Made by a program: the position numbers and the translations under genes
Part shown: positions 4,376 through 7,487 of the stretch, piece after piece
Layout: each line of letters begins with the position of its first letter
Numbering within the stretch: the first letter of the stretch is position 1
Assembly: GCA_002928515.1 (NCBI GenBank)
Contig: PERI01000005.1
Span: 62,001-126,000, forward strand
Source: Hyphomicrobium sp.
GTDB lineage: Bacteria > Pseudomonadota > Alphaproteobacteria > Rhizobiales > Hyphomicrobiaceae
Length of the DNA: 64,000 nt
Direction: 5' to 3'
Notes under the pieces: model-generated
Told to the model about the DNA's origin: nothing
The model's database searches: none
Seen by the model: the letters and a program-made list of their open reading frames with translations, nothing else

Positions 4376-5188
4376 CTAACGCTTTGCGATCAGCTCTAAA
4401 GCTGCGTCATGCAAACGCGGATCGCCGCTAGCAACGATGTTGCCGCCATCTATAGCGGGTTTGCCATCCCATGTTGTGATCCGACCGCCTGCGCGTTCAA
4501 TGATCGGGATCAGCGCCACGATATCGTAAGGCTTGAGACCACTCTCGACGATGAGATCGACATAGCCAGCCGCCAACAGACAATATCCATAACAGTCGCC
4601 CCCGTAGCGCGTCATGCGCACAGCACTCTTGAGTTTTGCCAGGGTCTTCTGCTTCGCGGGACCTTCAAACAAATCGGGATGCGTTGAAGTCAGAATGGCC
4701 TGATCCAAGGCCGAACAGGCGCGCGTTTTGATCCGCCGAGCTGGACCATCCGCCATGCGAATGAAGCTTGATGTTTCATCAGACCAGAATCGTTCGCGCG
4801 TGAATGGTTGGTTCATGACGCCCAGGTACGGCGCACCATATTCGCGCACGCCGATCAGTGTGCCCCATAGAGGGCTTCCCATAATGAAGGCGCGTGTCCC
4901 GTCGATCGGGTCGATCACCCATTCAAAACGCCCATCACCTGGGTGCTGACCCAATTCTTCACCGACAATACCATGACTAGGATAGGCAGCGCGCAACGCA
5001 CGAGTCATCACACGCTCGGCACCTCGGTCTGCTTCCGTCACGGGATCGAAAGACAGGCCGCTCGCCTTGTTTTCCACAGTTGGTTGACGGCGAAAGCTCC
5101 GCAATATGACTGACGCTGACCGATCAGCCAGGTCATGCGCAACAGACAACACGCTTTTAAATTCAGACCCTCGGCTCGCCTTAGCCAC
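4376..5188 (-). CDS. hisN: inositol monophosphatase-family histidinol-phosphatase
   Basis: DPVTEADRGAE, GIVGEELG, WVIDPIDGTRAFI, YDIVALIPIIERAGG motifs of the IMPase family. Confidence 0.85.
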   Translation of the reverse strand: MAKASRGSEFKSVLSVAHDLADRSASVILRSFRRQPTVENKASGLSFDPVTEADRGAERVMTRALRAAYPSHGIVGEELGQHPGDGRFEWVIDPIDGTRAFIMGSPLWGTLIGVREYGAPYLGVMNQPFTRERFWSDETSSFIRMADGPARRIKTRACSALDQAILTSTHPDLFEGPAKQKTLAKLKSAVRMTRYGGDCYGYCLLAAGYVDLIVESGLKPYDIVALIPIIERAGGRITTWDGKPAIDGGNIVASGDPRLHDAALELIAKR

Positions 5189-5410
5189 CCGTATGCCCCG
5201 TCATTTCAAATGGTTGCTTTGGTCTTGAGCGCTACTTGCTCAATACTGATGAGATATAGATTTTGCCTTATTGTAAAAGTGTAACGCCGTTTGTTGCGCC
5301 TGCGTTACAGGCATTTATTAATGCGTGTGGGCTACACTGCTGTCGATTGCGGGGTCAGCCGAAGCAGCGCACTCTACCGTTGAGATTGTGCTGATACGCT
5401 TCATCGCAAT

Positions 5411-5475
5411 CGAGCCCGATTTGGGCGTTTCCTCCCTAGACTTGGGCCGTTCGCCAGCCGAACGGCCTTTCTTTA
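5411..5475 (+). ncRNA. mmgR/suhB-type (alpha-r8-like) sRNA, copy 1
   Basis: GCCC-GATTT-GGGC hairpin, then GTTTCCTCCCTAGACTT, then terminator GGCCGTTCG-ccag-CCGAACGGCC-TTTCTTT. Confidence 0.8.
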
Positions 5476-5630
5476 TGAACCCCCCGGATCATCTCAAAAA
5501 CTGTCACACAAGCTTCTTGCATGCTGAGCCACGCGTTTTTAACGCGACAGCTCTGCATTAAATGCAGTTGCCGTTGGTGCGCTGCATGATAATTTTTGCA
5601 GTGCGGCATGCGTGAGCCTCGCTTGCGCGC

Positions 5631-5697
5631 CGCAGCCCTCCTTGGGCGTTTCCTCCCTAGACTTGGGCCGTTCGCTTGTCGGACGGCCCTTTTTTTA
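5631..5697 (+). ncRNA. mmgR/suhB-type (alpha-r8-like) sRNA, copy 2
   Basis: Same architecture as copy 1: GCCC-TCCTT-GGGC, identical TTGGGCGTTTCCTCCCTAGACTTGGGCCGTTCGC core, hairpin ending GGACGGCCC-TTTTTTT. Confidence 0.85.
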
Positions 5698-5743
5698 TCT
5701 ACTCAATTGCAACCGATGCGCGCGCCTAAGATTGAGTGCCTTG

Positions 5744-6643
5744 TTATTCCGCCGCTGCGCGTTGCTCAAATAATCCTGGCACCGATTGGAAAAGCTCCGA
5801 CGCAATGTCGTGCAGGGTTTGACACAACGGACCAAAGCGCTCGCTCTCTTCCAATTTCATTTCATTGAGATAAAGACCGCGATTGATCTCAAGCTGAAGC
5901 GCGTGTGTGTGCCTTGGCGGGCGACCGTAGTGCTCAGTGATATAGCCACCGGCATAGGGACGGTTCATCTGGACCCGAAACCCACGCTTCTGGAATTCAT
6001 CGCGCACCAGATAAGACAGTCTTGGATCAGCCGCCGCGCCAAACCGATCGCCGATCACAATGTCAGGTCTCAGAGCCCCGCCTGGTGTCATGGCCGATGA
6101 AGGCATCGAATGGCAGTCGACCAAAATCGCATACCCAAACGATTGCTTCGTCTCTTCCAATAACCGTCCCAGCTCACGGTGAAACGGAAAATACAGTTGA
6201 TCAATGCGCGCTAAGACATGCGCCAGCGGCAGGCGCCCGCGATAGATATTCTCTCCATCCGCCACAACACGGGCGACCGTTCCCAATCCACCAGCGACCC
6301 GAATGGATAGAGAATTGGCATGCGAGGGTAATTCTTCACTGATCAGTTCAGGATCAAGCTCGTATGGTTCGCGGTTGAGGTCGAGATAGGCGCGTGGAAA
6401 TCGCGCACAAATGAGTGGTGCACCCAATTGCGCGACCGATTGGAACAGCCGATCAACGAAACAGTCCTCCGATCGCCGCAACGTCAACGGGTCCAGTCGC
6501 GACATCTTGAGAAAATCAGCAGGATAGGTTCGCCCCGAATGCGGCGATGAAAAAACGAACGGCGCCGATTGCACGCGCGGATTTAACACGTCGAACGATG
6601 GAAAAAATTGCGCGGGTAGCACTTGGGCAGGGTTCAAGGGCAT
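5744..6643 (-). CDS. N-formylglutamate amidohydrolase family protein
   Basis: FVFSSPHSGRTYP, LDLNREPYELD, ILVDCHSMPS, LQLEINRGLYL; adjacent to cpdR as is usual in Rhizobiales. Confidence 0.88.
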   Translation of the reverse strand: MPLNPAQVLPAQFFPSFDVLNPRVQSAPFVFSSPHSGRTYPADFLKMSRLDPLTLRRSEDCFVDRLFQSVAQLGAPLICARFPRAYLDLNREPYELDPELISEELPSHANSLSIRVAGGLGTVARVVADGENIYRGRLPLAHVLARIDQLYFPFHRELGRLLEETKQSFGYAILVDCHSMPSSAMTPGGALRPDIVIGDRFGAAADPRLSYLVRDEFQKRGFRVQMNRPYAGGYITEHYGRPPRHTHALQLEINRGLYLNEMKLEESERFGPLCQTLHDIASELFQSVPGLFEQRAAAE

Positions 6644-6939
6644 TGCAGTTTTACAGTCTCCAACGGCATCCGCGTGAAAACAGTCTGCGGGCAAACGGCG
6701 TGCGCGTGTATGTCTCGTTAACAGACAGTATGACAATGCCAATCGCGCGTCATGATGTCCAAGACGGTATATGATAAAACAACGTCTTTTGTGCAGTTAA
6801 TCGTTAGCTCATCGCGGCTATCAGTACTTTTCTCGATCTGTCCACAACTTCATCGCCTGTTTACCAAAGTCACGTCAACTTTGCTTGCGATCCAAATTCG
6901 GATATCAATAGCGGCCTACCTCTTCTTAAGCGAGCTACC

Positions 6940-7326
6940 ATGACTGCTAAGCCATCAAGTCTTCCCCTGCGTCGCATCCTGCTCGCCGAAGACGACGACT
7001 CCATGCGCGGGTTTCTGGTCAAAGCCTTGGAGAAAGCCAACTACGACGTCGTGGCCTTCGAGAACGGCGAGGATGCTTACGAGCGTATGAAGCACGAGCC
7101 GTTCTCGCTGCTCTTGACCGATATCGTCATGCCGAAAATGGACGGCATCGAGTTAGCCCGCCGCGCCAGTGAAATCGATCCCGACCTCAAAATCATGTTT
7201 ATTACTGGCTTTGCAGCCGTCGTTCTAAACAGCGACAATGCCCCTCCCAAAGACGCCCGTGTGCTCTCCAAACCTTTCCATTTGAAGGATTTGGTCCGCG
7301 AAGTGGATCGCCTGCTCTCTGAATGA
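6940..7326 (+). CDS. cpdR: single-domain response regulator CpdR
   Basis: ILLAEDDDSMRGFLVKALEKANYDVVAFENG...LLLTDIVMPKMDGIELARRASEIDPDLKIMFITGFAAV...VLSKPFHLKDLV. Confidence 0.93.
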   Translation: MTAKPSSLPLRRILLAEDDDSMRGFLVKALEKANYDVVAFENGEDAYERMKHEPFSLLLTDIVMPKMDGIELARRASEIDPDLKIMFITGFAAVVLNSDNAPPKDARVLSKPFHLKDLVREVDRLLSE

Positions 7327-7412: not shown

Positions 7413-7487
7413 GGGCACTTAGCTCAGCGGTAGAGCACTACCTTGACATGGTAGGGGTCACAGGTTCGATCCCTGTAGTGCCCACCA
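7413..7487 (+). tRNA. tRNA-Val (GAC)
   Basis: GGGCACTTAGCTCAGCGGTAGAGCACTACCTTGACATGGTAGGGGTCACAGGTTCGATCCCTGTAGTGCCCACCA; anticodon loop TTGACAT; encoded CCA. Confidence 0.97.

Follow-up and report, generated by a model that had tools for sequence, protein, structure and literature searches.

Two adjacent small RNA (sRNA) genes of the αr8 family (suhB/MmgR/SisA-type) stand between hisN and a gene for N-formylglutamate amidohydrolase (FGase) in Hyphomicrobium sp., and putative PhaR operators accompany only one of them. All coordinates refer to the window, the 64,000-nucleotide stretch of DNA that was analyzed. In our judgment, the locus quite probably encodes two trans-acting αr8 sRNAs that go back to an old duplication within the Hyphomicrobiaceae and kept the same UUUCCUCCCU seed, with the FGase-side gene (copy 2) gated by PhaR (AniA), a repressor that senses the carbon-storage polymer PHB, and the hisN-side gene (copy 1) free of PhaR. 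The features of the locus are as follows:

4376–5188, minus strand: hisN, histidinol-phosphatase of the inositol monophosphatase family, on the copy-1 side (TIGR02067, 303 bits vs a cut-off of 275; PF00459, 167.6 bits)
5346–5375, plus strand: predicted promoter of copy 1, with −35 ATTGCG (5346–5351), CGAA (5360–5363) and −10 CACTCT (5370–5375)
5382–5474, plus strand: predicted transcript of copy 1, the hisN-side αr8 sRNA, about 93 nt (RF00519 match; ends predicted)
5384–5411, plus strand: P0, 5′ hairpin of copy 1 (GATTGTG...CGCAATC), from folding and covariation in the hisN-side alignment
5414–5426, plus strand: P1 hairpin of copy 1, GCCC-GATTT-GGGC, loop without CCUCCUU
5428–5437, plus strand: 10-mer TTTCCTCCCT of copy 1, predicted anti-Shine-Dalgarno (anti-SD) pairing segment (10-mer as defined in PMC12559287)
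5444–5475, plus strand: terminator of copy 1, 10-bp stem with the interrupted T tract TTTCTTTAT
5567–5593, plus strand: predicted promoter of copy 2, with −35 GTTGCC (5567–5572) and −10 GATAAT (5588–5593), from conservation and tentative
5578–5586, plus strand: putative PhaR operator 1, TGCGCTGCA, fitting TGCRNYGCA, between −35 and −10 of copy 2 and phased in relatives
5597–5605, plus strand: putative PhaR operator 2, TGCAGTGCG, fitting YGCRNYGCR, 19 nt from operator 1 and over the predicted copy-2 start
5600–5696, plus strand: predicted transcript of copy 2, the FGase-side αr8 sRNA, about 97 nt (RF00519 match; start within 5599–5605; ends predicted)
5602–5634, plus strand: P0, 5′ hairpin of copy 2, from folding and alignment
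5635–5647, plus strand: P1 hairpin of copy 2, GCCC-TCCTT-GGGC, with a second anti-SD stretch, CCUCCUU
5649–5658, plus strand: 10-mer TTTCCTCCCT of copy 2
5665–5696, plus strand: terminator of copy 2, 10-bp stem followed by TTTTTTT
5744–6742, minus strand: FGase-family gene, convergent, start codon uncertain (PF05013, 256 bits)

An earlier note on this DNA had described a core shared by two segments and placed both in the suhB/mmgR (αr8) family. The core, TTGGGCGTTTCCTCCCTAGACTTGGGCCGTTCGC, is an exact 34-nt match, and in the covariance-model search that the note proposed both segments score above the RF00519 gathering score of 41 bits (copy 1: 5407–5483, 53.5 bits, E 3.5e-8; copy 2: 5628–5703, 75.4 bits, E 8.8e-14). 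No further suhB match above the cut-off was found in the whole 2.9-Mb genome. In both copies, the 10-mer is single-stranded and lies 3′ of a GCCC-N5-GGGC hairpin. The covariance model, the 10-mer and the FGase synteny together confirm that both segments are αr8 sRNA genes. The two neighbors had also been named correctly, and the position of the pair, on the plus strand between hisN and the FGase gene, is the usual αr8 location. The FGase-family gene scores under the hutG equivalog cut-off; its protein places the genome near Hyphomicrobium, the best matches being 76–78% identical. Further along the window, a tRNA gene (7413–7484; RF00005, 70.6 bits; anticodon GAC judged by position) lies downstream of a single-domain response regulator (6940–7326).

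The strong terminators reported in the earlier note are Rho-independent, with 10-bp stems at 5444–5468 and 5665–5689; the U tract is perfect in copy 2 and interrupted in copy 1. The interrupted tail CTTTCTTTAT is found in copy 1 and in the orthologs of close Hyphomicrobium relatives, unlike copy 2, and may affect termination or Hfq loading. A third suhB match in the genome, at 28 bits, was considered as a third αr8 copy and is instead BjrC1505 (RF02356, 53.1 bits), an alphaproteobacterial sRNA that lies outside the window (C1:517381-517521; L003:1426-1566 / L188) and has its own CCTCCCTG segment. BjrC1505, present once in the genome, shares a CCUCCCU segment and a strong terminator with the αr8 RNAs but differs in its Rfam family, in the context of its motif (CCTCCCTGATGACTTT) and in genomic location. 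Its suhB score hints at a shared anti-SD design.

Transcript starts near 5400 and 5620 had been assumed. Since a covarying 5′ hairpin, P0, stands before each GCCC stem, the RNAs probably begin about 20 nt earlier, near 5382 and 5600; for copy 1, the position of the −10 element was also used to place the start. P0 is a stem-loop of about 20–33 nt directly before P1 in each gene. Compared with shuffles, segments that end exactly at P1 are unusually stable (mean z −2.6 for hisN-side copies, −2.6 for FGase-side copies and −3.2 for order-level copies), with 85–100% of them below z −1.5 across the three sets, and segments shifted by at least 10 nt from P1 have no excess stability except a weak effect at a few offsets. 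RNAalifold recovers P0 in all three alignments. In the order-level alignment, 94.6% of cells pair, vs 84.4% in shuffles and 33–52% when the stem is slid, and there are 35 double changes vs 13.8 in shuffles; in the hisN-side alignment, double changes occur in all nine pairs. The earlier note had argued from differing loops and constant stems to selection on structure, which is a weak argument from two copies; P1 itself is silent on structure because GCCC/GGGC never varies in the alignments. P0, which that reading had missed, does pass the structure test.

P0 read as a DNA palindrome instead of an RNA hairpin was considered and set aside: stem mismatches are G·T in 96 cases vs A·C in 18 (84% G·T, where composition predicts 65%). 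This excess favors P0 as RNA on the sRNA strand, with a moderate margin over composition and among related rows. A long-range pairing between GATTGCG (5345–5351) and the base of the copy-1 P1 stem was likewise rejected: the conservation is better accounted for by the local P0, and GATTGCG overlaps the −35 element. Each gene thus has three stem-loops: P0, P1 and the terminator. MmgR of Sinorhizobium meliloti has been reported as a 77-nt RNA with three stem-loops (PMC7143759), a description that fits this arrangement, and P0 is probably the first of the three. A suspected clash between the published mmgR start and P0 disappears if the listed PhaR site is operator 1, which puts that start at the foot of P0, as we infer from the coordinates in PMC12542648 and PMC2873474. 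The Rfam model omits most of P0, beginning only 7 nt before P1, and P0 suggests a route to extend it.

The pair is shared across the family. At least one αr8 match was found in 99 of 103 family genomes. In named genomes, αr8 genes stand beside FGase at 43 loci, of which 31 have two copies, eight have three and four have one; the two-copy and three-copy loci together with the window make up the 40 Hyphomicrobiaceae loci compared here for copy number and synteny. A quick tree groups the copies by position and not by genome, with 35 of the 40 hisN-side copies in a single clade. Just one copy in 80 is most closely related to another copy of the same locus, which speaks against a recent duplication or gene conversion. 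Since the copies cluster by position across species, the duplication is, judging from these sequences, old and family-wide and no peculiarity of the window genome; the copies would have separated before the genera did.

The two positions differ in the P1 loop. TCCTT or a close variant is present in 36 of 40 FGase-side copies, in 8 of 8 middle copies of three-copy loci, in 27 of 27 order-level single copies and in 4 of 40 hisN-side copies. Together with the stem, this loop creates CCUCCUU, a second anti-SD stretch that copy 2 has and copy 1 does not. Because single copies elsewhere share its loop, copy 2 is probably of the ancestral type and copy 1 derived. Three αr8 genes stand in a row at L075, L077, L079, L080, L081, L083, L086 and L088, where the extra FGase-proximal copy has a TCCTT-type loop. 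Phased PhaR operators accompany this extra copy at one of the eight loci, likely a second, independent loss of PhaR control.

The clearest difference between the copies lies in their promoters. The counts cover only operators correctly spaced relative to P1; by this rule, shuffled sequence yields well below one (about 0.3). Phased operators are present at all 32 FGase-side copies of two-copy loci and at all eight middle copies of three-copy loci, vs 1 of 39 hisN-side copies; upstream of copy 1 in the window, a PhaR operator was sought and not found. The split between positions has a Fisher P of 2e-19, which overstates independence because of shared descent among the loci. None of the 40 multi-copy loci lacks a PhaR-type copy. 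Single-copy αr8 genes elsewhere in the order have the operators in 26 of 27 cases, among the best-scoring loci returned by the search and not a random sample. In these genes the promoter is clear: CTTGAN and CATATT stand about 17 nt apart, operator 1 lies in the spacer, and operator 2 covers the start. The predicted copy-2 promoter lies at the position homologous to this CTTGAN-N17-CATATT promoter, and its −35/−10 spacing, about 15–16, is short. A simple sigma-70 consensus scan found none, and the promoters were deduced from conservation. The free triplet of the operators varies (GCT, GGC, GCC, AGC, ACC, AAC and others) and the YGCR/YGCR frame is constant, as predicted by selection for one DNA-binding protein.

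The hisN-side copies have a promoter element of their own. TTG-N9-13-CGAA-N5-7-CA occurs in 35 of 40 hisN-side copies, in 0 of 40 FGase-side copies and in 0 of 27 order-level copies (shuffled mean 0.0). The −35/−10 geometry remains similar to that of the single-copy promoter (TTG-N20-CAT in 34 of 40; shuffled 0.3), and the spacer holds CGAA in place of the PhaR operator. The −10 element reads CACTCT in the window and CAT in most relatives.

These promoters bear on whether the copies are merely redundant, supplying the dosage of one sRNA with neutral differences upstream. Such redundancy would fit the identical seed and 34-nt core, and redundant tandem siblings are known, for instance OmrA/OmrB (PMC12559287). 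However, PhaR operators are kept at one position and absent at the other over 40 loci, and the hisN-side copies are set apart both by a conserved promoter element and by their loop type; neutral drift would not preserve such differences across genera, which makes redundancy unlikely. The earlier note had offered redundant or condition-specific regulators. Promoter sequence argues for the second, with PhaR operators at one copy only throughout the family.

The assignment of the operators to PhaR rests on the motif and on where else it occurs. YGCRNYGCR is the heart of the S. meliloti PhaR motif (PMC12542648), and the PhaR/AniA operator in Bradyrhizobium is TGCRNYGCASMA (PMC6201568). Gel shifts with S. 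meliloti PhaR show binding to the mmgR promoter, and mmgR is repressed by this protein (PMC12542648). The window genome has phaR (PF07879, 102.6 bits), divergent from the adjoining phbA, and its phasin promoter holds TGCGCTGCACCA, a perfect PhaR consensus; phaR was found in 57 of 60 family genomes. A PhaR-type site is also present in the phaR–phbA intergenic region (L134:1740-1975) in most relatives examined, possibly for autoregulation. A palindrome, CTGCATTAAATGCAG (5553–5567), adjoins the predicted copy-2 −35 element and is kept in relatives in a form like CTGCGTAAATCGCA; it is possibly the operator of a further regulator. That palindrome shows that other factors may bind here, and the YGCRNYGCR sites, known at this locus from sequence, could themselves serve a factor other than PhaR. 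This is improbable, as the motif matches the published PhaR consensus of both S. meliloti and B. diazoefficiens (PMC12542648, PMC6201568) and recurs in the phasin promoter and the phaR–phbA region.

As for what the RNAs do, the SisA 10-mer represses a target by anti-SD pairing in Caulobacter, where it pairs with mRNA near the start codon and lowers translation with Hfq (PMC12559287). In S. meliloti, MmgR limits PHB accumulation and PhaR represses mmgR (PMC7143759, PMC12542648). The window genome has hfq. phbA was considered as a conserved target and rejected: its ribosome-binding site in this genome, AGGGAGG, is complementary to the seed, but just 4 of the 28 relatives retain GGGAGG there. In Caulobacter, the αr8 family is under the control of an RNA sponge, CrfA (PMC12559287); a pattern search of the genome for the complement of the 10-mer gave no convincing CrfA-like candidate and no exact match beyond the αr8 genes, and one site with one mismatch (C1:471019), with overall counts below the control. 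That one copy serves chiefly to titrate the other copy or Hfq, by competition or as a sponge, and not to regulate mRNA, as the CrfA precedent and the looser U tract of copy 1, which may alter Hfq loading, could suggest, is very improbable, since the seeds are the same and not complementary, so that the copies cannot pair through them, and no good complement was found elsewhere in the genome.

The favored reading is one of two regulators with one seed under different control. Aided by Hfq, the UUUCCUCCCU seed would base-pair to the Shine-Dalgarno regions of mRNAs and block their translation. Copy 2 (5600–5696) would be the MmgR counterpart. It would be silenced by PhaR sitting on both operators, the first between the −35 and −10 elements and the second across the start site; once PHB granules had drawn PhaR off, the released sRNA would be a readout of the carbon store. 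Copy 1 (5382–5474), without PhaR control and with a CGAA element in its promoter, would supply the same seed at other times. A more specific version, to which we lean with some reserve, is that a storage-sensing sRNA has split into PHB-gated and PHB-blind copies with one seed, the blind copy having come under another regulator through CGAA and having shed the anti-SD stretch of its loop, maybe with a narrower set of targets.

Much of this arrangement has precedents. The αr8 family, its multiple and adjacent copies, its FGase linkage, the PhaR control of MmgR and the seed are already known (PMC12559287, PMC12542648). MmgR (SmelC689/sm8, suhB RNA, RF00519) belongs to the same family, with the same seed, terminator and FGase-adjacent position and a PhaR operator in its promoter. 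S. meliloti has one copy, whereas the window has two, only one with PhaR operators; for mmgR one operator is listed, and copy 2 has two. The C. crescentus siblings SisA–D (PMC12559287) carry the same 10-mer, sisA adjoins FGase, and the sibling promoters are unrelated; SisB–D, however, lie at other genomic sites, whereas the window copies are in tandem. Caulobacter also has the CrfA sponge, for which no good candidate was found in the window genome. OmrA/OmrB of E. coli are, as here, tandem siblings with a shared pairing region (per PMC12559287), but they are of an unrelated family and share one regulator, whereas the window promoters differ. In the literature searched, no report of a positional split of PhaR operators between tandem Hyphomicrobiaceae copies was found; the main αr8 phylogeny, cited in PMC12559287 for distribution and adjacent copies, lies outside that search. 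The split control is thus the new element, with priority not settled.

αr8 RNAs are among the most widespread sRNAs of the Alphaproteobacteria, and several lineages have multiple copies without a clear reason. The Hyphomicrobiaceae offer a clean and testable one: the copies would have parted at the promoter, so that only one answers to the PHB sensor PhaR, with the operators, the promoter element and the predicted 5′ ends defined to the base.
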